This document shows positions 6,864 to 21,297 of a stretch of DNA of 52,024 nt, piece after piece. Under the pieces are notes generated by a model that saw only the letters and a program-made list of their open reading frames with translations, made no database searches and was not told the DNA's origin. A program made the translations under genes and the position numbers. The first letter of the stretch is position 1. The number at the start of each line of letters is the position of its first letter. The stretch is from the NCBI GenBank assembly GCA_002070735.1, contig MWDX01000031.1, forward strand, positions 1-52,024, given 5' to 3'. This DNA is from Parcubacteria group bacterium ADurb.Bin115 (GTDB lineage: Bacteria > Patescibacteriota > Patescibacteriia > Patescibacteriales > UBA12465).

Positions 6864-6864
6864 A

Positions 6865-7686
6865 TTAATTTTTAGTTTTATGCTTAAAGGGGTGGTAGTT
6901 TATAAAAAGATAAATTAGACTGGTGGTAATAATTATTAAACTCATTATTTGCGGCCAACGCCAGCCCCAAAGCATTGGCGTAATATCCACTTTAATAAAT
7001 TCCAAGCTAAATCTTAGAAGGGAATAAGCGATTAGATAAAAAATAATTATAATAATCGCTTTTTTGTCATCTATTTTGTTTTTCCATTTATAATTTAAAA
7101 ATAATAAGAATGTAAAAATCAGAAGGCACCCTAGGCTTTCATACAAAAATGTTGGTTGGAAGAAAGTTTCATTAATATATTGCAAGGGGCGGTTTATCTC
7201 GGCGATTGGTATCCCCCATGGTAAATTAGTGGGTAATCCAAAAAGTTCTTGATTAAACCAGTTGCCCCAACGGCCAAGAGCTTGTCCCAAGGACAGGCCG
7301 GTAACACTTAAAGCGCCAAGGCGAGCTGCTGATAAGTGGTAACGTTTAGCAAATAGGAAAAGGGTAATGGCTCCACCTATAATGGCGCCATGAATTGCTA
7401 GTCCTCCCTCCCAAAACTTAAAGGCGGCAGTGGGATTTTGATAATAATATGGAAATTCTAGAAATAACTCATAAATTCTCGCTCCCAGTAAACCGCTGAC
7501 TATTAGCCAAATCGCTAAATCCAATATTTTCTCTTTTTCTATTCCATAAAATGAGCTTAATTTCCAAGCGACTGTTATGCCGGCCGCCATCCCTAAAACT
7601 AAAAATAGACCATACCAATGAACGGTAAGCGGCCCAAAACTAAAAAGAATGGAATTAGGTAAAAATGAGTGGAGAAAGTAAAACAT
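6865..7686 (-). CDS. lgt: Prolipoprotein diacylglyceryl transferase
   Basis: 273 aa integral membrane enzyme that transfers diacylglycerol from phosphatidylglycerol to the lipobox cysteine of prolipoproteins. Recognisable family features: HWYGLF (23-28), the conserved His in GGLAIHG (H99), and the Lgt signature around GRWGNWFNQELFG (138-150), followed by FLYESL. I place the start at 7686 (MFYFLHS); a longer frame upstream only reads antisense through tRNA-Leu. The window also encodes the next enzyme, LspA, and at least three lipoprotein substrates (1-97, 19927-21297, 27979-28461). Confidence 0.93.
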   Translation of the reverse strand: MFYFLHSFLPNSILFSFGPLTVHWYGLFLVLGMAAGITVAWKLSSFYGIEKEKILDLAIWLIVSGLLGARIYELFLEFPYYYQNPTAAFKFWEGGLAIHGAIIGGAITLFLFAKRYHLSAARLGALSVTGLSLGQALGRWGNWFNQELFGLPTNLPWGIPIAEINRPLQYINETFFQPTFLYESLGCLLIFTFLLFLNYKWKNKIDDKKAIIIIIFYLIAYSLLRFSLEFIKVDITPMLWGWRWPQIMSLIIITTSLIYLFINYHPFKHKTKN

Positions 7687-7877: not shown

Positions 7878-10286
7878 ATGATTAAGCCTGTTTTTGTTCG
7901 TTTTTTTGAAGAGTTATCCATTAAGGACGTACCTTCGGTCGGAGGGAAAAACGCCTCTTTGGGTGAAATGTACCGCAATCTTAAAGATAAGGGTATTAAA
8001 GTGCCCAATGGTTTTGCCACTACCGCCGATGCTTATCATTATTTTTTAGAAAGTACCGGATTAAAAAAGAAAATAAAAGAAATTTTAAAAGACCTTGACA
8101 CAAAAGACACGCGTAATTTGATGGCACACGGCAAAGCGGTGCGTGAGGCAATTTTATCCGTTCAATTGCCGGCTGATTTTAAAAAAGAAATTGCTGATGC
8201 TTATAAGCGCTTGTCTGCTGAAAATAAAAGCAAGGCTTTGAATGTGGCCGTTCGTTCCAGTGCGACCGCCGAAGATTTACCAGACGCTTCTTTTGCTGGT
8301 CAACAGGAGACTTTTTTAAATATTGTAGGAGAGAAGGAATTATTATTGGCCGTAAAGAAATGTATTGCTTCTTTATTCACCGATCGCGCCATTTCCTATC
8401 GGGCCGACAAAGGCTTTGATCATTTTTCCATCGCTCTATCGGTCGGCGTACAGAAGATGATTCGCTCCGATTTAGGTGCCTCCGGCGTTATGTTTACCAT
8501 TGACACTGAATCCGGTTTCCGTAATACTGTCTTAATTAATTCCATTTATGGCTTAGGGGAAAATATCGTCCAGGGGCGGGTAAATCCGGATGAATTTTAT
8601 GTCTTTAAACCAACTTTGGCGATTATCTCCCGTTCTATCGGCAAGAAGACGGTAAAGATGATTTATAATAAAGGCGGTAAATCGCCGGTAAAAAATATTG
8701 CCGTTAGTGCTTCTGATCGTCTGAAACCGTCTATAAGCGACGCTCAGGTCAAAAAATTGGCAAAATGGGGGATAGAAATAGAGGAACATTACGGCCGGGC
8801 GATGGATATTGAATGGGCGATTGACGGTCGCGATCAAAGTCTTTATATAATTCAGGCTCGTCCAGAAACGGTGCAAAGCCTTCGTAGTCTTAGTGTTATT
8901 GAAGAGTATCGTTTACAAAAGAAAGGGACGGTTTTGGTAAAAGGTCAGAGTGTCGGCAATAAGATTGGTGCCGGTAAGACCAGGCGAATTATGGACGTGA
9001 AGCAGATTCACAGCTTTAAGCCGGGAGAAGTTTTGGTGACTGATATGACCGATCCTGATTGGGAACCGATTATGAAAATCGCTTCCGCTATTGTCACTGA
9101 TAAGGGGGGTCGTACTTGTCATGCAGCCATTGTTTCCCGTGAACTCGGTATTCCTTGTGTGGTTGGTACTAATAATGGTTCTAAAGTCTTAAATAGCGGA
9201 CAAAGCGTAACTGTCAGCTGTGCCGAGGGTGAAGAGGGTTTTGTTTATGCCGGCAAATTGCCGTTTAAAGTTTTAAGCACTGATATTAAAAATTTAAAGC
9301 GCCCCAAGACGAAAATAATGATGAATATTGGCGAGCCAGAATTGGCTTTTGCTCAATCTTTCGTGCCTAATGACGGCGTTGGTTTAGCCCGTTTGGAATT
9401 TATCATTAATAATTATATCAAGATTCATCCTTTAGCCCTAATTAATTATCCTCATCTTCAAGACAAGGAAGCTCAAAAGAAAATTAAACAACTAACTGCT
9501 GGATATGAGGATAAATCTCAATATTTTGTTGATCGTCTGGCTCAAGGCATAGCCATTATTGCCGCCGCTTTCTATCCTAAAGAGGTAATCGTGCGTTTGT
9601 CTGATTTTAAAACCAATGAATATGCTAATTTAATCGGCGGTCGCGAATTTGAACCGGTGGAGTCTAATCCGATGATTGGTTGGCGCGGCGCTAGCCGCTA
9701 TTATGCTAAGCAGTTCGTACCGGCTTTTAATTTGGAATGTAAGGCGATAAAGCGCGTTCGCGACGATTACGGCCTAACTAATTTGAAGTTAATGGTGCCT
9801 TTCTGCCGAACCGTGGAAGAAGGTAAAAAGGTGCAGGAAATCATGGCTAAGAACGGCTTAAAGCGCGGCGTTAACGGTTTGCAGATCTATGTGATGGCGG
9901 AAATTCCGAGTAATATTATTTTAGCCGATAAGTTCTGTGACATTTTTGACGGCTTTTCTATCGGTTCCAATGATTTAACTCAATTGTTATTAGGGATTGA
10001 TCGTGATTCCGGCGGCAGTTTAAAAATTAAAGGCGTTTCCAATGAAAAGAATGAGGCGGTTAAGACGATGATTAAGAATTTAATTGCCGTGGCTAAGAAG
10101 CGCAAGCGCAAAGTTGGTATTTGCGGTCAGGGTCCAAGCGATTTTCCTGATTTTGCCGAATTTTTAATGGCTGCCGGCATTGATAGCATTTCTTTGATTC
10201 CGGATACGGTAATACCAACAACCATGAATTTAGCTAGTAAGGAAAAATCTTTGCGTCGCCGCGGTTTTCTCTCCTTTCTTTTTTAA
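7878..10286 (+). CDS. ppsA: Phosphoenolpyruvate synthase
   Basis: 802 aa, normal length for PEP synthase (pyruvate + ATP to PEP + AMP + Pi). Domain order is canonical: N-terminal ATP-grasp domain (VRSSATAEDLPDASFAGQQ, about 125-143), central swivelling phosphohistidine domain (GGRTCHAAIVSREL with His415), and C-terminal PEP/pyruvate barrel with EIPSNI, GSNDLTQL and VGICGQGPS (catalytic Cys749). It supplies PEP for gluconeogenesis or runs in reverse as a pyruvate-forming step; PEP synthase is common in fermentative bacteria with reduced metabolism. A TATAAT box at 7829-7834 gives a leader of about 37 nt without SD. Monocistronic, with a terminator at 10303. Confidence 0.95.
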   Translation: MIKPVFVRFFEELSIKDVPSVGGKNASLGEMYRNLKDKGIKVPNGFATTADAYHYFLESTGLKKKIKEILKDLDTKDTRNLMAHGKAVREAILSVQLPADFKKEIADAYKRLSAENKSKALNVAVRSSATAEDLPDASFAGQQETFLNIVGEKELLLAVKKCIASLFTDRAISYRADKGFDHFSIALSVGVQKMIRSDLGASGVMFTIDTESGFRNTVLINSIYGLGENIVQGRVNPDEFYVFKPTLAIISRSIGKKTVKMIYNKGGKSPVKNIAVSASDRLKPSISDAQVKKLAKWGIEIEEHYGRAMDIEWAIDGRDQSLYIIQARPETVQSLRSLSVIEEYRLQKKGTVLVKGQSVGNKIGAGKTRRIMDVKQIHSFKPGEVLVTDMTDPDWEPIMKIASAIVTDKGGRTCHAAIVSRELGIPCVVGTNNGSKVLNSGQSVTVSCAEGEEGFVYAGKLPFKVLSTDIKNLKRPKTKIMMNIGEPELAFAQSFVPNDGVGLARLEFIINNYIKIHPLALINYPHLQDKEAQKKIKQLTAGYEDKSQYFVDRLAQGIAIIAAAFYPKEVIVRLSDFKTNEYANLIGGREFEPVESNPMIGWRGASRYYAKQFVPAFNLECKAIKRVRDDYGLTNLKLMVPFCRTVEEGKKVQEIMAKNGLKRGVNGLQIYVMAEIPSNIILADKFCDIFDGFSIGSNDLTQLLLGIDRDSGGSLKIKGVSNEKNEAVKTMIKNLIAVAKKRKRKVGICGQGPSDFPDFAEFLMAAGIDSISLIPDTVIPTTMNLASKEKSLRRRGFLSFLF

Positions 10287-10302
10287 TTAAAGTGCTTTAA
10301 AC

Positions 10303-10341
10303 AAAACACCCGCTACGGTAATTCCGCAGTGGGTGTTTTTG
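10303..10341. terminator. Bidirectional terminator between ppsA and the 3D-domain gene
   Basis: Stem AAACACCC/GGGTGTTT, with an imperfect inner stem (GCTACGG/CCGCAGT region), flanked by A-rich and T-rich runs. It serves the convergent genes ppsA (+) and 10357-10959 (-). Confidence 0.75.
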
Positions 10342-10356
10342 TAATCTTGAAAATTA

Positions 10357-10959
10357 TCAATCAATGAATTCCACCACTTCTATTTTGGCGACTTTGACGC
10401 CGAATTGGCGGGCGTCAGTTTTTTCTTTCATCCAGATATCAATACGATCGCTATAGCGCTTGTTCATGCGGTCGCGCACCACAAAGATGCGGTCGCCATA
10501 TAATTCGGGGATTCTGACTTTAGTACCGAATTGAAGGAAGTTAGCGGCAATCGTGTCCTCTTCGCCATGTTTGCAGACATTAAAACCATTGGCGGTAATA
10601 CAGGGGGTGTTGTCAGTCTGGGCGGGGTCAGAGTTATAGGCAGTGATAGTATGGGTGCTGGTCCTAATCACTTTAATTGCCGGAGTGTTTGTTTCTAATT
10701 TATCAGTGGCAACTTCAACATTTTCCGTATCAACGGTAATATTTGCATTTTTAATTAAATCAGCTACTATTGGGTCGGCTTCGCTCTTGCTGGTAGTATC
10801 CATTTTTATATCTCCTTGAGCTAAGGTCACGGCTTCAGCCGCTAAGACGGGTGTAAAGAAGAGAACAAATTGGAAAATACAAGCAATAATCAGAGTGAGA
10901 GCGGTTCTTTGGCGTCTACTAAGAGGCACTAAGTCCTCGCTGATTTTGAATTTTTTCAT
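10357..10959 (-). CDS. Exported 3D-domain protein (cell-wall associated)
   Basis: 200 aa. A basic N-terminus is followed by one hydrophobic segment (about 20-40) ending ...VLAAEA, a signal peptide or anchor. The C-terminal ~90 residues form a 3D (three-aspartate) domain: TITAYNSDPAQTD, then ITANGFNVC, GTKVRIPELYGDRIFVVRDRM and SDRIDIWM, containing the conserved aspartates of this double-psi barrel family, found in MltA- and Rpf-type peptidoglycan lytic enzymes. Likely acts in wall remodelling, though the catalytic activity of stand-alone 3D proteins is not firmly established. Its promoter at 11038-11066 starts transcription at the base of a terminator-like hairpin. Confidence 0.8.
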   Translation of the reverse strand: MKKFKISEDLVPLSRRQRTALTLIIACIFQFVLFFTPVLAAEAVTLAQGDIKMDTTSKSEADPIVADLIKNANITVDTENVEVATDKLETNTPAIKVIRTSTHTITAYNSDPAQTDNTPCITANGFNVCKHGEEDTIAANFLQFGTKVRIPELYGDRIFVVRDRMNKRYSDRIDIWMKEKTDARQFGVKVAKIEVVEFID

Positions 10960-10986
10960 ATTAGCGTAAGGTTATTTTCTCAAACA

Positions 10987-11027
10987 AAAAATCCCTACAG
11001 TATTAAATATGACAAGCAGGGATTTTT
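10987..11027. promoter_or_regulatory. Terminator-like hairpin in the leader of the 3D-domain gene
   Basis: A 12-bp stem (10987-10998 with 11016-11027, one G-T wobble, 17-nt loop) flanked by A-runs and T-runs so that it looks like an intrinsic terminator on either strand. No gene ends nearby. On the minus strand it lies directly after the predicted start (~11031) and about 28 nt before the start codon of the 3D-domain gene, so it may attenuate or stabilise that transcript. Confidence 0.6.
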
Positions 11028-11037
11028 GCGACTTATC

Positions 11038-11066
11038 TTTATATCATAGCTTAATTGTTAAGTCAA
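11038..11066 (-). promoter_or_regulatory. Promoter for the 3D-domain gene
   Basis: On the minus strand: -35 TTGACT (11061-11066), 17-nt spacer, -10 TATAAA (11038-11043). Predicted start near 11031, leader about 70 nt. Confidence 0.65.
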
Positions 11067-11088
11067 GGTGTAGACTGGGGATAAGTTA

Positions 11089-11117
11089 TTGACATATATT
11101 TAAAAAAGTGCTATACT
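11089..11117 (+). promoter_or_regulatory. Consensus promoter for the exported protein at 11202
   Basis: Perfect -35 TTGACA (11089-11094), 17-nt spacer, -10 TATACT (11112-11117). Predicted start near 11124, giving a leader of about 78 nt. Confidence 0.8.
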
Positions 11118-11123
11118 AATAAG

Positions 11124-11157
11124 TTCTAAGCTAAGATTGTAAAATTTTAGCGAAGAA
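11124..11157 (+). promoter_or_regulatory. 5'-terminal hairpin in the leader of the gene at 11202
   Basis: The predicted transcript begins with TTCT pairing with AGAA, then a 2x2 internal loop, then a 7-bp stem (GCTAAGA/TTTTAGC with one wobble) and an 8-nt loop. The position at the very 5' end resembles a stability hairpin. Confidence 0.45.
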
Positions 11158-11201
11158 TATAATAAATTGTACATTAACATTAACAACAAAAAATATCCAT
11201 C

Positions 11202-12101
11202 ATGAAAACACAGAAATTTTTTCTATTTTTGGCCATTTTTATGGCTGTAACTATTGGTATTAACGCCCAAACCCGCCAGCAGCGTAAGGCTCTGGAAAAA
11301 GTGGCAACTGAAAAAGCCGCTCTTGAAAAAGAGCTGGCCGAACTTGAAATCTCAATTGCGACTTATGTCGCGATTGACACACTGCCCACCTACTCTCGTA
11401 AAAAGGAGATTGACCAAGCTTTGGCAAGCGGCGAAATGTCCATTAAACAAAAAGCCGCTTATAGCGATCAAAGTCACAAGCTTGGTCGAAAGCTGGCGGC
11501 TATGCGTCAACAATTGTTGGTTGATACTGCTTCTTTTGCTTATTGTTCCAGAAGAATCAATGAAATTAAATTTCGTCTTCAGAAGCTGAATGATTATCAG
11601 ACCGACCTGATTAACAATCAGCTTGACGAGGCAGTTAATCAGATACCGCCTCAAGAGATGAGCTCACGTGAAGCTAAACGCCGTCATCGCGGCAATATTA
11701 TAAAGATGGAAACAAACAAAGCTGCTTTTCAAGAAAAATTGCAGGCAATGTCTGTTTCAAAAAAAGAGGCCGCTCCCGTTATTGCTGACCCTATTAATGG
11801 TTTTTTTGGTAGGGTTATAAATCGCTCAAGCCATACGGTCTATAATTTCGTTATTTACGAAAAAAACAGCAAAGCAGAATTAAAATCTTTTGTTCTTGAA
11901 CCAGGAACATCGGCAAGTAACTATTTTCTGCCAGGAGAATATGCTTGTGATGTTAAGGCTTATGGAGTTATAGTAGCTCATTATGAGTTTCATGTTACAG
12001 CAGATACTCATGATGTTTTTGGTGAAGAGCTCCATTGGGCGGTGTGGCAGGAGTCAGAGGTTAGAAAACCAATGGCCAAAAATATAACTTTAAACCATTG
12101 A
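11202..12101 (+). CDS. Exported coiled-coil protein with C-terminal beta domain, unknown function
   Basis: 299 aa; I do not recognise the family. A signal peptide (residues 1-22, likely cleaved at INA|Q) is followed by a charged helical region rich in Glu, Lys and Leu (about 25-190) with coiled-coil character, then a C-terminal segment (about 195-285) with alternating hydrophobics that looks like a small beta-sandwich. The signal peptide style, cleavage before Gln and the A-rich leader before the ATG are typical of Bacteroidota, so transfer from that group is possible (inference). Single-gene unit with its own consensus promoter and terminator. An extracytoplasmic structural or adhesion role is a guess. 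Confidence 0.75.
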   Translation: MKTQKFFLFLAIFMAVTIGINAQTRQQRKALEKVATEKAALEKELAELEISIATYVAIDTLPTYSRKKEIDQALASGEMSIKQKAAYSDQSHKLGRKLAAMRQQLLVDTASFAYCSRRINEIKFRLQKLNDYQTDLINNQLDEAVNQIPPQEMSSREAKRRHRGNIIKMETNKAAFQEKLQAMSVSKKEAAPVIADPINGFFGRVINRSSHTVYNFVIYEKNSKAELKSFVLEPGTSASNYFLPGEYACDVKAYGVIVAHYEFHVTADTHDVFGEELHWAVWQESEVRKPMAKNITLNH

Positions 12102-12109
12102 TCTTTTAT

Positions 12110-12146
12110 AAAAGGCCAGTCTTTCCTAGACTAGCCTTTTTCTTTT
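12110..12146 (+). terminator. Terminator after the exported coiled-coil gene
   Basis: Stem AAAAGGC-AGTC/GACT-GCCTTTT with one internal mismatch and a T-rich tail; it also lies between convergent genes and may work both ways. Confidence 0.75.
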
Positions 12147-12157
12147 ACATTTTTTAT

Positions 12158-12601
12158 TTATGGAGTTGCTCCACCACCAGGAATACTGTTATTACCCGTT
12201 CCTATTCCCCCGCCGCCACTAAAGGGCAATTGGTTAAAGATAAAATAAGTGATGGCGTAGGCCATTAAGACAATTACTAAGCCGATAATTGCCCGCTTAA
12301 TCATGTCTTGCGCTTTTTTAACCGCCTCTTCATTACCGGCGGCAGTCATCCAGCTGTAGCCGGCAAAGACAATAATAATTAAGAAGATTATGCCCAGCAG
12401 GCTTAAAGCGATTTGAATGATTGCGACGATAATTTGAACTAAAGTAAAATCATTTAATCCGGTTTCTCCTAACATTTTTTGAGTTGGTTCATCAATAGTT
12501 TCGACCAGGCTCTTAGCGGTGGTTGTTCGCGCTGATACAACCGACATTGGCAGAATAATAGCTAAGACTGCGATTATTAATCTTATTTTAATATTTTTCA
12601 T
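12158..12601 (-). CDS. T4SS-type pilin, tandem copy 6
   Basis: 147 aa. Signal peptide (about 1-24), a short polar stretch, then two membrane helices separated by a short basic/acidic loop reading WMTAAGNEEAVKKAQDM. This two-helix plan and loop are the hallmark of VirB2/TrbC-like T4SS pilins (the T4SS_pilin family common in CPR genomes). Unique here is a Gly/Pro-rich C-terminal tail (GGGGIGTGN...) of about 20 residues. It is the last gene of the six-gene array and starts 2 nt from the stop of the preceding copy. No T4SS ATPase or channel gene lies in this window. Confidence 0.85.
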   Translation of the reverse strand: MKNIKIRLIIAVLAIILPMSVVSARTTTAKSLVETIDEPTQKMLGETGLNDFTLVQIIVAIIQIALSLLGIIFLIIIVFAGYSWMTAAGNEEAVKKAQDMIKRAIIGLVIVLMAYAITYFIFNQLPFSGGGGIGTGNNSIPGGGATP

Positions 12602-12603
12602 AT

Positions 12604-13029
12604 TTATAATCTCTCAATAATATTCACTAAAATGAAATTCCAAATTGCCCAGGAACTAAGGACAATAATCAGGCCGATGAGGGCGTGTTGAATGGTGTTT
12701 TGCGCTTTTTTAACCGCCTCTTCATTACCGGCGGCAGTCATCCAGTTATAACCAGCCAAGATCACAAGGGCTATAAAAATAACGCCCAGCAAGCCAAGGG
12801 CACCATTAATAATTAGACCAATAATAGTGAGAAGCGAGTTTTCATCGGCTTTAGTATAGGGACCATTTTCTCCGGAAGCGATATTTTCCAGGATTGTTAA
12901 AGGATTACCTGATGAGCCGGTATTAACGGAACCAGTGCTGGTGCTTTGGGCAAATACGAAATAGGGCAGAATCATAATGGCGGTGAGCAGTAATAGGGTG
13001 AAGATTGGTTTTAAAGATTTTAACTTCAT
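12604..13029 (-). CDS. T4SS-type pilin, tandem copy 5
   Basis: 141 aa. N-terminal signal peptide, a longer Ser/Thr/Gly-rich extracytoplasmic segment (about 28-60), then helix one, the loop NWMTAAGNEEAVKKAQ and helix two. The DNA of the loop region is nearly identical to copy 6, pointing to recent duplication or gene conversion between these two. Spacing to its neighbours is 2 and 7 nt. Structural pilus subunit by family; partner proteins are not in the window. Confidence 0.85.
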   Translation of the reverse strand: MKLKSLKPIFTLLLLTAIMILPYFVFAQSTSTGSVNTGSSGNPLTILENIASGENGPYTKADENSLLTIIGLIINGALGLLGVIFIALVILAGYNWMTAAGNEEAVKKAQNTIQHALIGLIIVLSSWAIWNFILVNIIERL

Positions 13030-13036
13030 ACAGGCT

Positions 13037-13447
13037 TTAAATAAAGAATTTGATGATGAAATAAGTTAAGGCGTAAGCTCCTAAAATAATCACCAGACCG
13101 ACAATATTTTGGGTAATAATTGATGTAGCTTTTTTAGTCTGCTCTTCGTTGCCGCTGGCAGTCAAATAGAGATAGCCGCCGTAAATAATGAAAATAATAA
13201 AAATAACACCAAGTAAGGAAAATAATCCAGTTATTATTCTGCCGACAACTGTTTCTAAAACAACATTATTGTTATAACCAGCGCCGCCAGCGCCGGAAAC
13301 AATTCCTAAAGCGCTGCTGCTGCTCGTGTCAAAAGCAGTTTTTAAATTAGCGTTAGTTTGTTCCTGGGCCGCGACCGATAATGCCCCAGTGAAAATAAAC
13401 AAAGTTAGAGCAATTATAATGATATTGATTTTGTGTCTGGCAGACAT
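13037..13447 (-). CDS. T4SS-type pilin, tandem copy 4
   Basis: 136 aa with signal peptide ending near VAAQE, a Gly/Asn-rich segment (GAGGAGYNNN), helix one, the loop YLTASGNEEQTKKAT and helix two ending at the C-terminus. The loop departs from the usual WMTA (LTAS, EEQT), so this is one of the more diverged copies. Four nt separate its start from the stop of copy 3. Confidence 0.83.
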   Translation of the reverse strand: MSARHKINIIIIALTLFIFTGALSVAAQEQTNANLKTAFDTSSSSALGIVSGAGGAGYNNNVVLETVVGRIITGLFSLLGVIFIIFIIYGGYLYLTASGNEEQTKKATSIITQNIVGLVIILGAYALTYFIIKFFI

Positions 13448-13451
13448 GTTT

Positions 13452-13847
13452 TTATTGAATTAAGGAGCCGCTTGTCGCTTTTAAAATAAAATAACTGATA
13501 GCATAAGCGGCGAGGACAATAATAATGCCGATGATTGATTCGGTAAGCATTTCTTTAGCCTTGCTGACCTTTTCTTCGTTGCCGCTAGCAGTCATCCAAA
13601 TAATGCCGGCATAAATAGCCAGGCCTAAAAATACAACGCCCACTAAGGATAAAATAACAGTAATGATTTGCGCAATATAATCGTTTATTGTTGTGTCAGT
13701 AGTTTTGTAGCCAGCCTTATTGCCAGTATTACTTAAGCCGCTATTTTGGGAAAAATCATAACTTCCGTTTTGGGCTAGAGCTAAATTAAAGACGCCTAAA
13801 GACAGAATAAAGATAAAAATTAAGGAAATTAAGCGTTTTGCCCGCAT
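13452..13847 (-). CDS. T4SS-type pilin, tandem copy 3
   Basis: 131 aa from the start at 13847 (MRAKRLIS). A longer frame exists upstream but runs into copy 2, and the basic residues of the signal peptide begin here. Signal peptide, Asn/Gly/Ser segment (QNSGLSNTGNKAGYK), helix one, loop IWMTASGNEEKVSKAKEM, helix two. It starts 1 nt from the stop of copy 2. Confidence 0.83.
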   Translation of the reverse strand: MRAKRLISLIFIFILSLGVFNLALAQNGSYDFSQNSGLSNTGNKAGYKTTDTTINDYIAQIITVILSLVGVVFLGLAIYAGIIWMTASGNEEKVSKAKEMLTESIIGIIIVLAAYAISYFILKATSGSLIQ

Positions 13848-13848
13848 A

Positions 13849-14241
13849 TTAAGTGAGCTTATCGCCGACAAAGGCGGTAATAGCATAAGCAGCCATAACA
13901 ATTACTAAACCAATCACAGCATTAATCATTAAATCTTTAGCTTTGTTGACTTTTTCTTGATTACCGGAAGCTGTCATCCAGGATAGACCGGCAAAAATCA
14001 TCAGGATTAGAAAAATTACGCCGACAAAAGACAAGACTAGTCCGATAATAGAACCAAGGCGGGTACTGAGAAAATTGTTATCTGGATTAGCCGCTTGGGT
14101 TTTGTAAGCGTCAACTACATTAGCGCTTTGGCTTAATCCATAGTCATCAGCTGAAACCGGCAAGACACTAAAAAAACCGGCAATTATAAGGCTGGTTATC
14201 AAGAATGAAAATACGCTTTTTGTTATTTGAGCGCGTGACAT
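13849..14241 (-). CDS. T4SS-type pilin, tandem copy 2
   Basis: 130 aa from the start at 14241 (MSRAQITK); an upstream in-frame ATG at 14331 would add 30 residues encoded by two RNA hairpins and no hydrophobic segment, so the shorter form is preferred. Signal peptide ending near PVSA, a polar segment, helix one, loop SWMTASGNQEKVNKAKDL, helix two. Separated from copy 1 by a 122-nt spacer with two hairpins, the only sizeable gap in the array. Confidence 0.82.
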   Translation of the reverse strand: MSRAQITKSVFSFLITSLIIAGFFSVLPVSADDYGLSQSANVVDAYKTQAANPDNNFLSTRLGSIIGLVLSFVGVIFLILMIFAGLSWMTASGNQEKVNKAKDLMINAVIGLVIVMAAYAITAFVGDKLT

Positions 14242-14266
14242 AGATTTATTTATTTTTTGTTTCACT

Positions 14267-14323
14267 GCTCTAAACGCCAATGATTTGTCGTTTAGAGCGG
14301 TGGCCCCCTTATTAAAGAGGGCC
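14267..14323. promoter_or_regulatory. Two hairpins between pilin copies 1 and 2
   Basis: A perfect 10-bp stem (GCTCTAAACG at 14267-14276 with CGTTTAGAGC at 14289-14298, 12-nt loop) and a second 9-bp stem with one mismatch (14302-14310 with 14315-14323, 4-nt loop). No T-run follows on the minus (sense) strand, so they look like mRNA processing or stabilising elements rather than terminators. A directly repeated 14-mer (CTAGAAATTACTAA) lies beside them at 14339-14366. Confidence 0.6.
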
Positions 14324-14363
14324 TTTTCCAAAATCGATTCTAGAAATTACTAACTAGAAATTA

Positions 14364-14744
14364 CTAAGTAGTAGCAGAAATTAAGCGTCCTAAAATGAAG
14401 CTGGCGATACCCCAAGCGGCTAAGACGATAACCAAACCAATAACACCGGCGCCCATTAATTTTTGAGCTTCACTAACCTTGTCTTCGTTGCCGCCAGCGG
14501 TCATCCATTTAAAGCCACCCATTAAGATGATGACGACAGCGATGATGCCTAAGAAAAGCATAGCGACGTTAATCAATCTAGCGATGGTGGTTCTCGGATC
14601 GGTATTACCCAAACCGTTATCACCAAAACCTTCTTCGATTTCGTTTATGCCGACATCAATGTTTTGCGCCATTGTAACTATCGGTAGAGCCAATAATGAC
14701 AACATCGCAAACACCACTAAATTCTTTAAGATTTTTTTACTCAT
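14364..14744 (-). CDS. T4SS-type pilin, tandem copy 1 (promoter-proximal)
   Basis: 126 aa. Signal peptide ending near VTMAQ, a short acidic segment (GINEIEEGFGDNG), helix one, loop KWMTAGGNEDKVSEAQKLMG, and helix two. First gene of the array, with its own promoter in the divergent region and, unlike most genes here, an SD-like AAGGGTGGTG before the ATG. With the stable hairpins just behind it, this suggests it is the most strongly expressed copy, possibly the major subunit (inference). Confidence 0.87.
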   Translation of the reverse strand: MSKKILKNLVVFAMLSLLALPIVTMAQNIDVGINEIEEGFGDNGLGNTDPRTTIARLINVAMLFLGIIAVVIILMGGFKWMTAGGNEDKVSEAQKLMGAGVIGLVIVLAAWGIASFILGRLISATT

Positions 14745-14786
14745 AATTCACCACCCTTCTAGTTGTTGATATTTTTAGATGTTTTT

Positions 14787-14837
14787 ATTTTATCATAATT
14801 TATACCGAAAGACAAACAATTTTTCTTATGATAAAAT
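14787..14837. promoter_or_regulatory. Symmetric divergent promoter region
   Basis: A perfect 12-bp inverted repeat (ATTTTATCATAA 14787-14798, TTATGATAAAAT 14826-14837) places a TATGAT -10 box on each strand, at 14792-14797 (minus, pilin array) and 14827-14832 (plus, 14844 gene). The plus transcript would begin near 14839, only ~5 nt before the ATG at 14844, so that mRNA should be essentially leaderless; the pilin transcript has a ~40-nt leader. Confidence 0.6.
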
Positions 14838-14843
14838 ATAAAG

Positions 14844-16442
14844 ATGAATAATAAAATTAATAAATTGTCAATAGTTATTTTAGGGTTCTTGGTTTTTGTA
14901 GCCGTTGCTCTTTTTTTTCTATCAAACTCTTATTCTTATTCAGATGTAGATTTAGGTTGGCATCTGCGTATCGGCCAGGATATTCTAAAAAGCGGTCAAG
15001 TTCCCGTTTTTAATGACTATAATTATACTCTATCCGGGCAGAAGTGGGTTGATCATGAATGGCTTTTAAATGCTGGCATGGCGCTATTGTTTAATCACGG
15101 TAAATTTATCAACCTACACTTAGTTTTCCTTTTAGTCTTGTTGGTGACGGCTTTTTTTGTTTGGCGGCGAAATATTAATCTCTTAGGCAACAAAATAGTG
15201 TTTAAACTCGGCAGCGCTATCTGGTTATTTTTAGGTTTATTGGCCAGCAGGCCTCATTTAGGCATCCGGGTTCAAGAGTTTGGCTTGTTGGGTATGGCAA
15301 TTTTGTTTTGGATTTTTTCTGGGCCATCCCGCTCTCGGCACTATTTTTGGTATTTACCGCCCATATTTTGGTTGTGGGCCAATATTCATGGCAGCTTTCT
15401 TTTAGGGCTAGCCTTGTTGGGCGCTTATTGTATATATGCTTTTGCCTCTCCACTTTTTAAACATGTAAATCATTGGCAGTTATTTAGAGTTGATAGTTTT
15501 GATCTTAAGTTCAAAAAGCAATTATTGGTTATTTTTACTTTGTCTGTTTTAGCTACTTTAATTAATCCTTACGGTGTTGATTTGTATGCTTTTTTGGGCA
15601 CTTATACGCATACAACCTATATGGTTTATATCCGCGAGTGGCAGAGCCAGTTTGTTTTTCCGCTTTTTTATGTCCAGATATTTTATCTAGCCTTGGCCGC
15701 CGTCGCCTTGATCATGTTAATAAAGGATAGGCGCAAAAACTTGTTTATATTTTCTTGGTGGGAGGCTTTTTTATTCGTATTTTTCTTTATTTTGGCAATT
15801 AAGTCGCGACGCCATTTTCCTCTATTTGTTTTAGCATCTTTACCTTTTTTAAGTGTGGCGTTTCAAGAGTTTAGCGCTCAGATTATTGGTTTAGCCAAGC
15901 GCTGCCGTTCTTTAATCTGGAGGGCGTTGGCTATTTTTCTAATGTTTATTTTAGTTATTTATCAAGCCGTTAATATTCCCTGGTTTCAAAACAGTATCCA
16001 AGATTTTTGCGGACGAAAATATCCTTGCGCGGCTGTCGAGTATTTGCGGGCTAGACCGGATTTACTAAATAAACGTTTATTCAACAGCTATGATTGGGGA
16101 GGATATCTATTATGGGCTTATCCTGAAAGACAGATATTTATTGATGGTCGGATGCCGCAGGCAGAGTATCGGCATCACACTATTTTAGAAGAATATTTAA
16201 GATTTAGGAGCGGTAGTGAAGATATCGGGAATCTACTGAATACTTATCAGATTGATTTGGTCTTATTGAAAAAAAGTGTCGGCCCTTTAGCTCTGCGCTC
16301 TTGGGAAAAATTATTTTTTCAGATTTCAGAGGAAGAATTAACAGCGCCTGATTATTTGCGCTTATATTTAGATTCTTCCCTTGATTGGCAGGTGGTTTTT
16401 GAAGATAATATAAGCATTATCTATGAACGCCAAAAAAATTAA
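14844..16442 (+). CDS. Polytopic GT-C-like membrane protein
   Basis: 532 aa with about ten to eleven membrane helices. The first extracytoplasmic loop holds DVDLGWHLRIGQ (34-45) and WVDHEWL (68-74), acidic/His/Trp motifs in the position where GT-C glycosyltransferases keep their catalytic Asp. A soluble C-terminal part (about 400-532) includes NSYDWGGYLLW and IDGRMP. This arrangement occurs in uncharacterised GT-C-like proteins of CPR bacteria. Probably a lipid-phosphosugar-dependent transferase at the outer membrane face; not proven. It overlaps the next gene by 20 nt, so the two are co-expressed. Confidence 0.6.
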   Translation: MNNKINKLSIVILGFLVFVAVALFFLSNSYSYSDVDLGWHLRIGQDILKSGQVPVFNDYNYTLSGQKWVDHEWLLNAGMALLFNHGKFINLHLVFLLVLLVTAFFVWRRNINLLGNKIVFKLGSAIWLFLGLLASRPHLGIRVQEFGLLGMAILFWIFSGPSRSRHYFWYLPPIFWLWANIHGSFLLGLALLGAYCIYAFASPLFKHVNHWQLFRVDSFDLKFKKQLLVIFTLSVLATLINPYGVDLYAFLGTYTHTTYMVYIREWQSQFVFPLFYVQIFYLALAAVALIMLIKDRRKNLFIFSWWEAFLFVFFFILAIKSRRHFPLFVLASLPFLSVAFQEFSAQIIGLAKRCRSLIWRALAIFLMFILVIYQAVNIPWFQNSIQDFCGRKYPCAAVEYLRARPDLLNKRLFNSYDWGGYLLWAYPERQIFIDGRMPQAEYRHHTILEEYLRFRSGSEDIGNLLNTYQIDLVLLKKSVGPLALRSWEKLFFQISEEELTAPDYLRLYLDSSLDWQVVFEDNISIIYERQKN

Positions 16443-17790
16443 TATTTGGAAAATTTTATTTTGGTTTGCTCTGGCGGTTTTGGCAGTATTTTTTCATTCT
16501 GATCATTTTTTAAACGGCGATGAAGGGGTCACTTTAAATGGCGCTTGGAATTTGTATAATCATCGTCATCTTTATTTTGATTTTTTTTCTTTTTTGCCGC
16601 CTTTAAGTTTTTATCTTATATATTGGATATGGCTGATTTTAGGTGTAAGTTTTTGGTCAGCTAAAGCTTTTTCGATTATTTTACTATTAGCTGGCGCTTT
16701 TGGTCTTTTTAAAATCTCCGAACATTTACGTTCCCACCCGATTAATTATTTTGTCCCTTTTCTTTTTATTTTAATTTCTTCTTGGTGGTGGATCATTAAT
16801 CATAATTTTTATTATCTAGTTTTTAGTATTTGGTCCTGTTATTTCTTGTTATTGTTTTTAGAAAATAATACCCGTCGTCATTGTCTGGCGGCCGCTTTAT
16901 TGGCATCAGCCAGTATCGCCACTTTGCAACAAAAGGGTTTGTTGTTTGCCCTGGCTTCTTTTTTGATTATATTATTTTTTAATAAAAGACAATTTGGGCG
17001 TCGTCGCTTTTTAGCGGCCGCGCTTTATGTGTTAGGCGTAGCGGCTCCCTTGGTTTTGTTATTATTTTTTTGGCCCTTATCTGTATTATGGCAGAATTTG
17101 GTAATTTTTCCCCTATTCCATTACATTGAGGCCAATCGCCTCCCATATTATTTATTATTTTTAGCTTCTATATCCTGGCTCTTATTCGCTTGGCCCTTCC
17201 GTTCTTATGATTATCGGCGCTGGGCGCTGTTGATTTTAAGTGGTGTTTTAATTATTTCCTGCTATCCTTTGCCTGATTATTATCATTTAAGTATGGCTTT
17301 AGTGTTGTTATTGCCGATGTTGCCTGATTTGTTGGATAAGTTAAATAATCCCGCTGGAAGATGCCGTCGAGTTTTAGCAATTTCTGGTTTAACCTGGCTT
17401 TGGCTCTGGCCGGTAAGCCATTTTTTAGCCTTCTTCTTTAACTTTTCTTTCACTAAAGATTATCCTTTTTTGGACTATATCCGCCGAGAATGTCCAGGGC
17501 AATATCTACAAGTTGGACCTTTTTTACCTAATGTCTATTTGGAAACCGGCAAGCTTAGCGCTACTAGTTTTGATATTTTAATTACCGGACATCAAACTGC
17601 CGAGCAATTTGCCCAGGCGGCCGCGCAGTTGGAAATAAATCAACCTGTTTGTGCGGTAACGGCCTATCCGGCGTCGCTTTCACGTTTTCGCCACCAACTT
17701 GATAATCCGGTAGATAATTTTATTAGAGCAAATTATCAGCCGGTATTTACCGAGGGGAGTATTACCGTATGGAAATATAGGAATCAATAA
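16423..17790 (+). CDS. GT-C / GT39-like membrane glycosyltransferase
   Basis: 455 aa, about ten membrane helices. The first loop has the Asp-Glu pair NGDEG (D33-E34), as in the ArnT/PMT-type GT-C families where this acidic motif is catalytic, followed by a PP motif (FLPPLSFYL) typical of the same loop. A soluble C-terminal tail of about 110 residues follows the last helix. The ATG lies inside the end of the previous gene. With its partner at 14844 it may glycosylate exported proteins; the neighbouring divergent pilins are possible acceptors (speculative). Confidence 0.65.
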   Translation: MNAKKINIWKILFWFALAVLAVFFHSDHFLNGDEGVTLNGAWNLYNHRHLYFDFFSFLPPLSFYLIYWIWLILGVSFWSAKAFSIILLLAGAFGLFKISEHLRSHPINYFVPFLFILISSWWWIINHNFYYLVFSIWSCYFLLLFLENNTRRHCLAAALLASASIATLQQKGLLFALASFLIILFFNKRQFGRRRFLAAALYVLGVAAPLVLLLFFWPLSVLWQNLVIFPLFHYIEANRLPYYLLFLASISWLLFAWPFRSYDYRRWALLILSGVLIISCYPLPDYYHLSMALVLLLPMLPDLLDKLNNPAGRCRRVLAISGLTWLWLWPVSHFLAFFFNFSFTKDYPFLDYIRRECPGQYLQVGPFLPNVYLETGKLSATSFDILITGHQTAEQFAQAAAQLEINQPVCAVTAYPASLSRFRHQLDNPVDNFIRANYQPVFTEGSITVWKYRNQ

Positions 17791-17832
17791 ATTGGCTTTT
17801 ATTTGTTTCCGAGCTTAAATTTAGTAATTTAA

Positions 17833-17859
17833 AAAATCCCTCCGATATTGGAGGGATTT
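17833..17859. terminator. Bidirectional terminator
   Basis: Near-perfect stem AAATCCCTCC/GGAGGGATTT with a short loop between convergent genes ending at 17790 (+) and 17862 (-); A-run and T-run flank it. Confidence 0.8.
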
Positions 17860-17861
17860 CT

Positions 17862-18245
17862 TTAGGGAATGTATTTTTTAAATTTTTGTTCTTCTGCCAA
17901 CTGTTTTTGCTTGGTCGGCACCATTCGGTATTGTTTAATAATTGGCCAGAGCCACCATAACATAATAATTACCCAGATTGCGAGCCAAAAACGAGCGGAA
18001 AGAAAAGCCGCTTGTTCATAGTTAAAGAAGAAGAAGGTGGTGCCGATGATTAAATTGCCGATACTAAAATTATAAGCTTTTTTCCAAAATATTTTATATA
18101 AACTTTTACGATTTTTCTTGATGCCGGTAAAAATAGAGGCTAATAGTAGTAGGATTAAAAATCCCAAGAAAATTTGTACGAAAATAGGCAATAGGGGTTC
18201 CGGCCGTAAATTGAACCAAAAATGCCAGGTAAGCAGATTTTGCAT
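17862..18245 (-). CDS. Small membrane protein, unknown
   Basis: 127 aa with three predicted membrane helices (about 20-38, 60-75, 83-103) and a basic C-terminal tail (KQKQLAEEQKFKKY). I do not recognise a family. It is the last gene of a compact minus-strand cluster (21297 to 17862), 5 nt after the methyltransferase gene, and ends at a bidirectional terminator. Confidence 0.65.
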   Translation of the reverse strand: MQNLLTWHFWFNLRPEPLLPIFVQIFLGFLILLLLASIFTGIKKNRKSLYKIFWKKAYNFSIGNLIIGTTFFFFNYEQAAFLSARFWLAIWVIIMLWWLWPIIKQYRMVPTKQKQLAEEQKFKKYIP

Positions 18246-18250
18246 AGTGT

Positions 18251-18802
18251 TTATACTTTATAAAATATTAATCCGTAGTGATAAGGGCCAGCTTCAAATT
18301 CAGTTTTAAGGTTAAGACCTAATTTAGGAGCCGCTTCTTTCAGCGATTCTTTGCTCACCCTTTGTTCTGATCGTGGACCGAAAGGGCTGTCGCTATTTTT
18401 CCATTCTACAACTAAGAGCTGGCTACCATTTTTTAACATCCGTACAGCTTCTCTTAGTATTTCCACTCTTTTATTTGATTGATGGAGAATATTTATTAAT
18501 AGAGCTTGATCTAAACTGGCGCTTTCTATTTTAGTGCCCTTAAATATTTCTAAGTTACTCCAGACGGTTTCTATTTGTTGTAAATTTTCTTGCAAGGCGC
18601 GTTTTTTTATATCTTCAAGGGTGTTTTTTAGTATATCAACAGCAAAAACGCGGCCACGGGCTCCGACCATTCTGGCAACCGGGAAAACGAAATAGCCGAA
18701 ATTTCCGCAACCTAATTCCGCGACCCTTTGACCTTCGGTTATTGCTATTTTATTCAAAATAAAATTTATGTCAAATAGCATGGTTTTATTGGGACTGCTC
18801 AT
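18251..18802 (-). CDS. Class I SAM-dependent methyltransferase
   Basis: 183 aa from the start at 18802 (MSSPNKTM); a start at 18781 (MLFDINF) is also possible and would avoid overlap with the upstream gene. Motif I reads VAELGCGNFGYF, motif II VFAVDI, and motif IV/post-motif LLVVEWKNSDSPFGPR, all in the right order for a Rossmann-fold class I enzyme of the UbiE/COQ5-like type. The substrate is unknown; the WKNSDSPFGP segment recurs in CPR methyltransferases. It overlaps or abuts the RodZ-like gene, so the genes are co-translated. Confidence 0.75.
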   Translation of the reverse strand: MSSPNKTMLFDINFILNKIAITEGQRVAELGCGNFGYFVFPVARMVGARGRVFAVDILKNTLEDIKKRALQENLQQIETVWSNLEIFKGTKIESASLDQALLINILHQSNKRVEILREAVRMLKNGSQLLVVEWKNSDSPFGPRSEQRVSKESLKEAAPKLGLNLKTEFEAGPYHYGLIFYKV

Positions 18803-19463
18803 AAGTGTTTTCGACCAGAATTTGGCGCTGAATAACGCTTTCCCGGCCATATTTTTTTTTAGCGCTGATGGTAAGGTTGTTTAAGCCTTGTTTAAGTTTT
18901 ATTTCTTGGCTGAAATGACCGTCTTGGTCGCTCATAATACCGGTGCCATTAATCTTTATTTCTGTTTCCGGCTCGCTTTTTCCCTGAATGTTAATAATTG
19001 GATTCTGTAATACTAGATTTTTATCTGGATATTCCAGTATTAGTTCGGGCGGACTCACTAAACGGAAAAAATATATGCTGAGGTATAAGATACAGATTAA
19101 GAATAAGAGTATAAGTAAAGCATTCCTGATTATTTTAGGAAATATTAAAAATTTATGACGTCTTAATATTTTTTGAGAAAAAGGATTATGGCTAACCGCT
19201 TCTTCCGCAAAGGGGCTAAGTTTTAATATGTCTTGATAATTTAGGTTAAGGTAGCGACAATATTCTTTAAGAAATTGGCGTCCATATAAGCCGGAGGGTA
19301 AGCGGTCATATTCTTCATTTTCTAGAGATAATAAATACTCTTCTCGAATGTGAAGTTTTTCGGAGGCGTTTTTAATGTCAATATTTTGGCGCAAACGAGC
19401 CGCTCGTAGTTTTTCTCCAGATCTTTCTTCGCTCGCTAATTTCTTAAAGTTAAATTCTACCAT
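18786..19463 (-). CDS. RodZ-like protein: HTH, membrane helix, extracytoplasmic beta domain
   Basis: 225 aa. The N-terminal ~75 residues form an XRE-type helix-turn-helix of the RodZ class (GEKLRAARLRQNIDI, HIREEYLLSLENEEYDRLPSG, QFLKEYCRYLNLNY). A basic stretch and one membrane helix (about 112-132) follow, then an outside domain of about 80 residues that looks like a Big/PEGA-type beta-sandwich (ININGTG..DGHFSQEIKLKQGLNNL pattern). RodZ links MreB to the wall-synthesis machinery, and this copy has the same topology, though the outer domain differs from E. coli RodZ. It sits between a pilin and a methyltransferase gene with 7-nt and overlapping junctions. Confidence 0.78.
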   Translation of the reverse strand: MVEFNFKKLASEERSGEKLRAARLRQNIDIKNASEKLHIREEYLLSLENEEYDRLPSGLYGRQFLKEYCRYLNLNYQDILKLSPFAEEAVSHNPFSQKILRRHKFLIFPKIIRNALLILLFLICILYLSIYFFRLVSPPELILEYPDKNLVLQNPIINIQGKSEPETEIKINGTGIMSDQDGHFSQEIKLKQGLNNLTISAKKKYGRESVIQRQILVENTYEQSQ

Positions 19464-19470
19464 TTTTAAT

Positions 19471-19923
19471 TTAGGCTAAAATATTTTCCTGGGAATATAA
19501 ACCAATATTTGTTTTGGTGCCATCCCAATTAATGCCGATAGTTTTAAGAACAAACTGGATAATAAGATAACTGCTAAATACGATTATTAAGCCAACTACG
19601 GCGGCGACGATAATCGCTTTGGCTTTGCTGATTTTATCACTGCTACCGGATGATATGAGGAACATAAATCCGCCATAGACAAACATTAATAAAGCTAAAG
19701 AGCCGACAATTCCTAAAATCCAACGGGAAGCGCGGACGGCAATCATCACAATATCGTCTAAGGTGTAATCGCCGGTACTATATTTAGTGTCACCTTGATT
19801 GACGCCTTCAGTAGTTGTGCTAGTGGTGTCTACGATAGAGATTGACTGGGCTAAGGTGGGTAAGGCCGGAGATAAAAAGAATGAAATAATAAGGGTTAAG
19901 CCAATAAGTACTTTTTTAATCAT
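19471..19923 (-). CDS. T4SS-type pilin, separate seventh copy
   Basis: 150 aa. Signal peptide ending near TLAQS, a Ser/Thr-rich segment, helix one, a loop reading FLISSGSSDKISKAKAI and helix two, then a 25-residue polar tail. The loop has SSGSSDKI where the array copies have TA-GNEEKV, so this is the most diverged paralogue. It lies 3 nt after the solute-binding lipoprotein gene in a different operon from the six-gene array and may have a different role or timing. Confidence 0.8.
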   Translation of the reverse strand: MIKKVLIGLTLIISFFLSPALPTLAQSISIVDTTSTTTEGVNQGDTKYSTGDYTLDDIVMIAVRASRWILGIVGSLALLMFVYGGFMFLISSGSSDKISKAKAIIVAAVVGLIIVFSSYLIIQFVLKTIGINWDGTKTNIGLYSQENILA

Positions 19924-19926
19924 ATT

Positions 19927-21297
19927 TTAATTGACCGTTTGCTGCACTTTGGCAGCGCCGGTGTTAATAGCGTCTAAAATTTTATTAGGATTTTGACGGG
20001 CATTATCAATCATTTCTCCTATTGCCACTTCAGCCGCATTTGCGTCTTTGCCGCGGTACCAGCTTTTAGCCGTGAGGAGCTCGGAGGCAAACACACTTAA
20101 GTCGTTGTCTTCACGTTGAGAAGCAATTAAAGAGCGTAAAGCGGTAGGTTTTTTGGTTTTAGTTAAATAGGATTTAACCTGTTCCTCTTTGGTTGCGAAT
20201 TGAATAAAATCCCAAGCCTCATTCGGATACTTACTCTTTTTTGATACTGATTCTACCCAGTAGTTGGCGAAGTTGACTTCTACCGGACTGCCTTCTATTT
20301 GTGGCAGGGCGCTAATAGAAAAATTAAGTTTTGGCGCTTGTGCTTTAATGGTGGCGGCATGATACGAATATCCAAACAGCATGGCCAGTTTTCCGCTAAT
20401 AAATAAATTAAGAGAATTAGGTAGGTCGCTGTTCCAAGAGTATACTTCTTTCCCCGGGTTGCTGAAGTCTATATAAAAGCGCAGAGCTTCTAGGCCGGGA
20501 TTATATTTAGTATCTTGCGCCGCCGGCGGAATGGTGTTGAATAGGACTTGTTTGCCATCCATCATGGTAGCGCCATTTTGCATCATTAATACGGACAGAA
20601 TATCGCTATAGCGTTCAATATTTGTGCTGCCACCTAAACCGATTCCCGCTTGGGTGATGCCTTGAACCGGGTCTTGTTTGGTTAGTTTTTTGACATTTTG
20701 TTGAAATTCCTTGTTCCAATATTTTGGAGCCTGGGTAATGCCGGCGTTATTAAGCAGGTCGCGATTATAATAAAGGACTAGGGTGTCGACTGATAGGGGA
20801 AGACCATAAATTTGATTATCGTCAAGAACAACGTCGTCGTATACCACGTCAATAAAAGTATTTTTTAAGTCATTTAAACTGAGGCTTTTGACTGTTTTTA
20901 AAACCGGGACGACTTCTTTTTTAACGGTTCCTTGCTCTATCGGATAGGCCATGGTAATACTGGCGGGCATTGGCGTTAATTTATTTTGATATTTTCTCAA
21001 CCAAGTATTATGTAGGGATAAGATGTCTGGTCCACGATCTTCGGCTAGGGCGTTTAACAGTTCTAATTCATATTCTTCGTAGCGTAGTTTACGGTAGTTA
21101 ATGGTAATATTGGGATGAATAGCTTTATATTTATCAATTATTTCTTGAAAAGCGTCCGAGTCATCAAAAACACGCCAATAAGTTAAGGTGATTGGCTGCA
21201 TTGCGGTTTGAGTTTGTTTGTCTACGGTTTTACAACCGAATCCGGAAGTAAGAATAAAAATTGCCAATAAAAACAGGCTAATAATTTTCTTAAACAT
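19927..21297 (-). CDS. Extracellular solute-binding lipoprotein (ABC sugar type)
   Basis: 456 aa. Lipoprotein signal peptide with lipobox SGFGC (Cys22), then a family 1 solute-binding fold: ITLTYWRVFDDSDAFQEII near the mature N-terminus, PDILSLHNTWL, YGLPLSVDTLVLYYNRDLL (the hinge-strand signature of sugar-binding proteins), and FANYWVESVSKKSKYPNEAWDFI near the C-terminus. It would capture a sugar outside the membrane for an ABC importer, but no permease or ATPase gene is adjacent; instead it heads an operon with a pilin and a RodZ-like gene. Orphan binding proteins may act as sensors or adhesins (inference). Confidence 0.85.
   Translation of the reverse strand: MFKKIISLFLLAIFILTSGFGCKTVDKQTQTAMQPITLTYWRVFDDSDAFQEIIDKYKAIHPNITINYRKLRYEEYELELLNALAEDRGPDILSLHNTWLRKYQNKLTPMPASITMAYPIEQGTVKKEVVPVLKTVKSLSLNDLKNTFIDVVYDDVVLDDNQIYGLPLSVDTLVLYYNRDLLNNAGITQAPKYWNKEFQQNVKKLTKQDPVQGITQAGIGLGGSTNIERYSDILSVLMMQNGATMMDGKQVLFNTIPPAAQDTKYNPGLEALRFYIDFSNPGKEVYSWNSDLPNSLNLFISGKLAMLFGYSYHAATIKAQAPKLNFSISALPQIEGSPVEVNFANYWVESVSKKSKYPNEAWDFIQFATKEEQVKSYLTKTKKPTALRSLIASQREDNDLSVFASELLTAKSWYRGKDANAAEVAIGEMIDNARQNPNKILDAINTGAAKVQQTVN

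Follow-up and report, generated by a model that had tools for sequence, protein, structure and literature searches.

Six tandem T4SS_pilin-family genes in mostly fixed order, with a structured RNA after the first, in a Falkowbacteria-like member of the Patescibacteria

The window analysed here comprises positions 1 to 52,024 of contig MWDX01000031.1 of Parcubacteria group bacterium ADurb.Bin115, and the subject is an array of six pilin-like genes on its reverse strand at positions 12158-14744. In the direction of transcription these are P1 (14364-14744, 126 amino acids), which leads the array and is its most conserved member, P2 (13849-14241, 130 amino acids), P3 (13452-13847, 131 amino acids), P4 (13037-13447, 136 amino acids), which is the least conserved position, P5 (12604-13029, 141 amino acids), and P6 (12158-12601, 147 amino acids), which has a Gly/Pro-rich tail. 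P2 was taken to begin at its ATG, compared with which an alternative listed TTG start at 14331 was judged unlikely. The genes are arranged head to tail with gaps of 122, 1, 4, 7, and 2 nt, exactly as an earlier note, made from the sequence alone, had described them (gaps of 1-7 nt except one spacer). A seventh pilin gene, P7 (19471-19923, reverse strand), is located about 4.7 kb upstream of P1, and relatives likewise have a pilin upstream of the array. The host genome (758 kb in 37 contigs, 97.5% complete) belongs to a Falkowbacteria-like member of the Patescibacteria, whose nearest records are Candidatus Falkowbacteria and metagenome-assembled genomes of Patescibacteria.

All six array proteins and P7 pass the cutoff of 26.6 bits of the Pfam family PF18895 (T4SS_pilin, pilins of type IV secretion systems), with 39.1, 35.6, 41.2, 36, 35.9, and 33.5 bits for P1 to P6 and 33.8 bits for P7. 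In addition, P2, P3, and P5 (40.8, 42, and 40.6 bits) pass NCBIfam NF045849, the pilin-like conjugal transfer protein (cutoff 40). The assignment to this type of pilin by the earlier note is thus borne out by profiles that could have rejected it, and the loop it reported as common to the copies is seen as well. None of the array proteins passes PF04956, the TrbC/VirB2 family of diderm type IV secretion system (T4SS) pilins, where the best score is 17.5 bits against a cutoff of 27.9. Each pilin has two long hydrophobic helices and a signal-like N-terminus, as read from a structural model for P1, from the sequence for the others, and by eye for the signal peptides. PF18895 matches eleven times in the host genome, seven of them in the window, and the family is present in 8/8 genomes of the genus, 35/35 of the family, and 113/117 of the phylum. 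The locus is therefore a PF18895 pilin array of the kind already published for Patescibacteria, and the array as such is known.

Most of the six positions are occupied by the same subunit from genome to genome. In 23 genomes at least three array pilins occur in a run, and in the 21 that have all six positions, spanning eight genera of the family, the order and number of the genes are fixed. G007, with five genes at a contig end, was counted with positions 2-6 outside these 21, and G014, with three genes on the piece compared, was excluded from the orthology comparison by best hits and tree. Between genera the best hit lies at the same position in 360/360 cases for P1, 330/340 for P2, 264/340 for P3, 94/340 for P4, 329/340 for P5, and 330/340 for P6, and 1578/1650 reciprocal best hits agree in position. 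In a maximum likelihood tree of 132 proteins, P1, P2, and P5 each fall on one side of a branch (Shimodaira-Hasegawa-like approximate likelihood ratio support 99, 97, and 98). The labels of P6, P3, and P4 change two, four, and six times, and all labels jointly eight times compared with a mean of 85.7 after shuffling, in a tree that is built on a short alignment and has many forks without resolution. Thus five of the six positions are mainly orthologous, and the array subunits are mostly distinct and fixed. The earlier note had named the orthology of each copy to a different fixed subunit as the observation that would overturn its suggestions, and this is what was found for positions 1, 2, 5, and 6 and mostly for position 3, but not for position 4. 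The mixed, heteromeric pili it had also suggested are compatible with the data and, as a candidate explanation, the reading we prefer.

Beyond these genomes, 80 named loci were found with P1, of which 25 have exactly the order 1-2-3-4-5-6 and ten more differ only by duplicated neighbours; the class models used here were built from 22 arrays, some from the same species as the loci, so that this is not an independent test. Several of the named loci (L088-L167) are moreover the same records as loci already counted by genome, and joint counts such as the 49/105 given below are redundant. The arrays of Magasanik-, Uhr-, Buchanan-, and Kerfeldbacteria, which we take to belong to the class ABY1, differ: they often have a P7-like gene before P1 and comprise up to 15 genes. 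Three runs in Magasanikbacteria and Parcubacteria (L147, L149, L150) contain 14-15 pilin-like genes each, compared with 2-11 in the published arrays (PMC12102498).

In almost all relatives the array has a single long gap, the spacer between P1 and P2 (here 14242-14363, reverse strand), with a median of 109 nt compared with 2.5-9 nt for the others. In the host it folds with a z-score of -6.41, which none of 200 shuffled sequences equals in stability, into hairpins A (14346-14325), B (14323-14302), and C (14301-14264). A z-score below -3 is reached by 20/21 of these spacers (median -6.2) versus 15/64 control spacers on the same strand (median -1.6), of which the strongest is the array spacer of G014 itself (L072:1154-1231), which was counted among the controls. 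In an alignment of 25 spacers (A3), 17 of the 18 pairs of hairpin C show compensatory changes on both sides, 89.7% of the cells are paired, and 99 cells are changed on both sides compared with 29.5 after shuffling, while slid controls are at most 44% paired. The spacers of G031, G032, and G028 were left out of this alignment because of a long insert or a misplaced P2 start; the covariance model R1 later found the elements of all three. Among 45 matches fitted to the model (A4), an alignment that leans to the structure, 90.5% of the cells are paired and 172 are changed on both sides compared with 50.7 after shuffling. One of the 45 rows is an opposite-strand echo (L172:3181-3301), which was kept for the covariation and hairpin B counts and removed for the count of G-U pairs, and this echo is the only row in which hairpin B is missing (44/45). 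R1 detects the element in 33/35 genomes of the family; G010 has it at two places and the others at one, and two additional hits are opposite-strand matches to a place already counted. The two genomes missed are G007 and G022, in which the pieces examined show no P1-P2 junction. All 13 hits that were checked adjoin a P1-class gene, and eight of these are outside the training set (G008, G009, G014, G020, G021, G027, G036, and G010:C11). The RNA structure is thus supported by covariation, and its place is directly after P1. No Rfam family reaches its gathering score, the best being 28.1 bits versus 60 in 10000-20500, and a close scan of the spacer gave none. An intrinsic terminator is ruled out, as no stem followed by a T-run matches in 14242-14363 on either strand.

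A stem behind P1 is also present outside the family. Among the 80 named loci the gap that follows the last P1 folds with a z-score below -3 in 30/33 arrays of the family type and in 26/27 measurable gaps of other arrays, compared with 1/23 and 9/69, respectively, of the remaining array gaps that are 35 nt or longer. The two groups were split by array order, and the second includes a few Falkowbacteria records. The hairpin sequences outside the family are unrelated, so that it seems to be the stem rather than the sequence that counts in this gap.

Domains of the P1 class are not restricted to the array. Host contig C8 (L038:1-8023) carries two adjoining open reading frames (ORFs) of 895 and 1977 amino acids, each of which opens with a PF18895 domain. 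In their equivalents in the genus mate G004 (L063:2617-8469, 8511-11201) the P1-class pilin domain is followed by TIG and Big_5 domains, which are immunoglobulin (Ig)-like. For each of the 14 long fusions in the genus P1 is the best-scoring class, by at least 18 bits, and two shorter pilin-domain proteins of G004 have no clear fit to it. Frames longer than 700 amino acids with a pilin domain occur in seven of the eight genus genomes, the eighth being cut by a contig end, and at least 28/35 family genomes have a PF18895 match in a frame of at least 800 amino acids among the matches listed. Because of the analogy with modular type IV pilins (PMC8179133), the P1-class fusions may act as display or adhesion subunits. 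According to PMC12102498, adhesins of the PrgB kind were not detected.

Several other genes were noticed. In G004 a third large exported protein follows the two giant fusions. Proteins of about 350 and 440 amino acids with a pilin domain are encoded in G006 (L064:4321-5358, 6207-7532) and in G004 (L051:2437-5732), one of them with a sub-threshold NlpC/P60 match. By eye, their genes are interleaved with genes resembling subunits of a ferredoxin oxidoreductase, and none such was found in the host genome. The host genome has two single pilins elsewhere (L040:4403-4837; L039:1-237), both with orthologues in the genus, and one of these is adjacent to a gene that, by eye, resembles one for a polysaccharide flippase.

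The rest of the T4SS is encoded on other contigs. A VirB4 of the type common to Patescibacteria and Gram-positive systems is found on contig C10 (PF19044, E 5.8e-29; NF045971, 357.1 bits compared with a cutoff of 325; PF12846 stayed below its cutoff in the genome scan), and the VirB4 match is single in each of the eight genus genomes. A PrgI/VirB3 protein adjoins it (PF12666, 36.7 bits versus 27). Two ATPases of the TrwB/VirD4 type pass PF10412, on C8 and C3, and are candidate coupling proteins for the T4SS of the array. The virB4 cluster of G006 encodes a multi-helix protein with several hydrophobic segments, to which a protein on host contig C30 is 70% identical; it can be called VirB6-like by position and hydrophobicity only, as it matches no Pfam family. 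Consistent with the earlier note, which had seen no other T4SS gene in the window, all matches to VirB4, VirD4-type, and VirB6-like proteins are on other contigs, part of the ORFs of the window having been scanned. That the array serves something other than secretion, as was also considered there, is left without support, because the T4SS core is present elsewhere in the same genome. The array (contig C31, the window) and virB4 are on separate contigs, and in G006 both are on one contig of 208 kb, about 170 kb apart. A pilin is near virB4 in 1135/1948 assemblies (PMC12102498), and the separate contigs here therefore do not exclude that the array belongs to this system. A search for the relaxase family PF03432 found none in the genome, which makes conjugation unlikely as the function of the array.

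Taken together, we consider it somewhat more probable than its negation, at roughly 0.55, that the array encodes mostly fixed subunits of a VirB2-like pilus in which P1 is in excess, and that this excess is set by the RNA after P1. The six genes would encode distinct, position-fixed subunits of a VirB2-like pilus or pseudopilus of a chromosomal Patescibacteria T4SS, to which genes elsewhere in the genome would contribute the ATPases and membrane parts. P1 would probably be the major pilin, and each of P2-P6 would have a role of its own as a minor subunit. A single transcript probably spans P1-P6, and the hairpin RNA probably protects the 3' end of the P1 mRNA or marks a processing point; by such shielding or processing P1 would be made in excess over P2-P6. 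The P1-type domains on the large Ig-like proteins probably display adhesion modules via the same assembly. The wider picture of a host-contact organ of episymbionts, which would combine a heteromeric fixed-subunit pilus built by a Gram-positive-type T4SS, a stoichiometry set by RNA, and giant Ig-like adhesin modules on the same pilin class, is more tentative, and we would rather bet against it than for it in its full extent.

Several observations weigh against a P1-dominated, RNA-tuned pilus. A fold search of the P1 model against the PDB finds no pilin and no significant match. P4 is not orthologous by best hit and P3 only partly, the array order changes outside the family, and the classes P1-P6 do not hold outside the class. 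Codon bias (effective number of codons) shows no trend for P1 as a sign of high expression. As to the RNA, 14/41 gaps after P1 in the other arrays are shorter than 35 nt and hence outside the folding count. R1 itself is family-specific, as with stricter filters it matches 3/115 class genomes, all of them family members. In 19 array pieces from outside the class, 0/4 gaps after P1-like genes have a z-score below -3 (other gaps 6/40), and the P1-adjacent hairpin thus extends across related lineages and not beyond the class. Finally, in the papBA operon of Escherichia coli, which is compared below, the hairpin that protects the mRNA is on the 5' side of the major pilin gene, whereas here the hairpins are 3' of P1, and the pilins are unrelated (PMC5927463).

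The alternative that fares best concerns the RNA: instead of stabilising mRNA, the spacer could attenuate transcription or act between P1 and P2 as a switch under regulation, which we regard as unlikely but worth keeping in mind. Hairpins B and C have an arm in common and can form in competition with each other, B being able to extend into the first bases of the 5' arm of C in 34/45 rows, and a different output of P1 versus P2-P6 would follow from such a switch as well. However, the spacer has no U-tract terminator, and the unrelated sequences of the hairpins outside the family are more in keeping with a plain stem than with a sensor of a ligand. Also rather doubtful is the possibility that the proteins form a channel for uptake or translocation, stay in the membrane, and build no extracellular pilus. 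The signal-like N-terminus and the two long hydrophobic helices of each protein would fit a channel, Gram-positive-type T4SSs are usually without pili (PMC12102498), and the weak PDB matches of the P1 model are to proteins made of helices, among them ATP synthase subunit c. On the other hand, the proteins belong to the T4SS_pilin family of Pfam and in part to the pilin-like family of NCBIfam, and the large Ig-like fusions suggest display at the surface.

It is improbable that the array serves as a repertoire of pilin variants, interchangeable or antigenic, for different hosts, as in the Trw system of Bartonella and as proposed also in PMC12102498. The identity between the copies is low, position 4 diverges fast, and the array size varies outside the family. 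In addition, as the earlier note had remarked of their near-identical loop DNA, P5 and P6 have 46 bp of the loop exactly in common. This tract comprises 15 whole codons, the flanking codons differ also at silent sites, and it resembles gene conversion. It is the second longest among 331 within-array pairs in 22 arrays, after that of a duplicated P1 in another genome, and no such run of P5 and P6 is present in the four other genus arrays compared. It looks like a single conversion event, which is real but rare: the median longest tract is only 11 bp, and gene conversion as a general driver is ruled out by there being one strong case in the host genome. At an antigenic-variation locus copies exchange sequence and have no fixed orthologues, whereas here the 46-bp tract is the one strong candidate for an exchange in the host genome, and most positions keep their orthologues, order, and number across the 21 arrays. 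The ratio of nonsynonymous to synonymous substitution rates (dN/dS) between the host and G005, the closest pair, does not exceed 0.14 in any of the pilins; silent sites are close to saturation throughout. In the segment between the signal region and the first helix the ratio is nowhere above 1 where it could be computed, the silent sites of P2 being saturated. P1 has the lowest proportion of nonsynonymous differences in 5/6 genome pairs and of synonymous differences in 4/6. The antigenic variants suggested by the earlier note are therefore unsupported by both orthology and dN/dS. Least probable of all is that the spacer works as DNA, as a binding site or a palindrome like the repetitive extragenic ones, since although its long inverted repeats score on the other strand too, it occurs at one place in nearly every genome, beside P1 wherever checked, and on the transcript strand, to which the alignment was fitted and in which cells are not independent, 63 G-U pairs face 33 A-C mismatches.

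Among the neighbouring genes, the one at 10357-10959 (reverse strand) is a conserved companion of the array and encodes an exported protein of 200 amino acids that is predicted to fold into a double-psi beta-barrel, a candidate wall-remodelling factor. It is located beyond P6 in 6/6 genus arrays aligned, and a homologue is present in 49/105 loci of the redundant set. Its model is weak (mean predicted local distance difference test score 62.5) and matches PA4485 (E 1e-4), two phage-type tail baseplate proteins (5e-5 and 1e-4), expansins, and the lytic enzyme YuiC (0.06), which makes a double-psi barrel acting on the cell wall plausible. Sequence searches of the PDB with the alignments of P1 and of the barrel protein gave no match. 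The barrel gene and P6 are in separate operons because of a convergent gene between them (11202-12101, forward strand), which encodes an exported, coiled-coil-looking protein of 299 amino acids without a Pfam match; a gene of varying length occupies the equivalent place in genus mates. Directly upstream of P7 is a gene for a solute-binding protein (19927-21297, reverse strand; PF01547, E 4.4e-33), the same neighbour as in genus mates. Further away, ORFs resembling by eye a DNA methyltransferase and the large subunit of a phage terminase (40416-43561, forward strand) might belong to a prophage.

The closest known systems are the 441 arrays of 2-11 VirB2-like pilins described in 383 assemblies by Quinonero-Coronel et al. 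2025 (PMC12102498), where they are read as host adaptation or antigenic variability and no need for VirB1 is reported. The array described here resembles them in its tandem PF18895 genes, in the presence of VirB4 and VirB3/PrgI and of a candidate VirB6-like protein in the genome, and in the usual lack of a relaxase. It differs in the mostly fixed orthologues, the conserved RNA after P1, and the P1-type Ig-like fusions, which are not mentioned in the available parts of that paper and are what is new here. Searches of the open-access literature found neither the P1-P2 RNA, nor the P1-type Ig-like fusions (about 900 and 1950 residues), nor the barrel-protein neighbour, and no report of an RNA element or a pilin-operon hairpin in Patescibacteria or of a Falkowbacteria pilin. 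The Trw system of Bartonella also has tandem VirB2-like copies, but these are proposed to be antigenically variable (PMC12102498, PMC12857230), while the array here consists mostly of fixed orthologues. In papBA, decay and processing of the mRNA governed by a hairpin determine how much of the major pilin is made compared with its operon partner (PMC5927463). An intercistronic hairpin in a pilin operon is common to both systems, and its role has been tested in papBA and would be similar here only by extension. PilB of Streptococcus sanguinis, like the giant fusions, joins a pilin module to a large adhesion-like one (PMC8179133), although PilB is of the type IV pilin kind and the domains here are P1-class domains of the T4SS_pilin family. 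Patescibacteria pilin arrays have so far been read as variable or antigenic, whereas the evidence presented here points to a division of labour with named candidates, namely a major pilin, adhesin-bearing pilins, and an RNA control element. Candidatus Southlakia epibionticum has a cluster of six sequence-divergent VirB2-like pilins (PMC12857230), a likeness that holds by description and not gene by gene, and its pilins are inside the T4SS locus, whereas here virB4 is on a contig other than that of the array. The relevance of such a division of labour follows from this species, whose T4SS with its series of pilins is essential for epibiotic growth on the host (PMC10633639).

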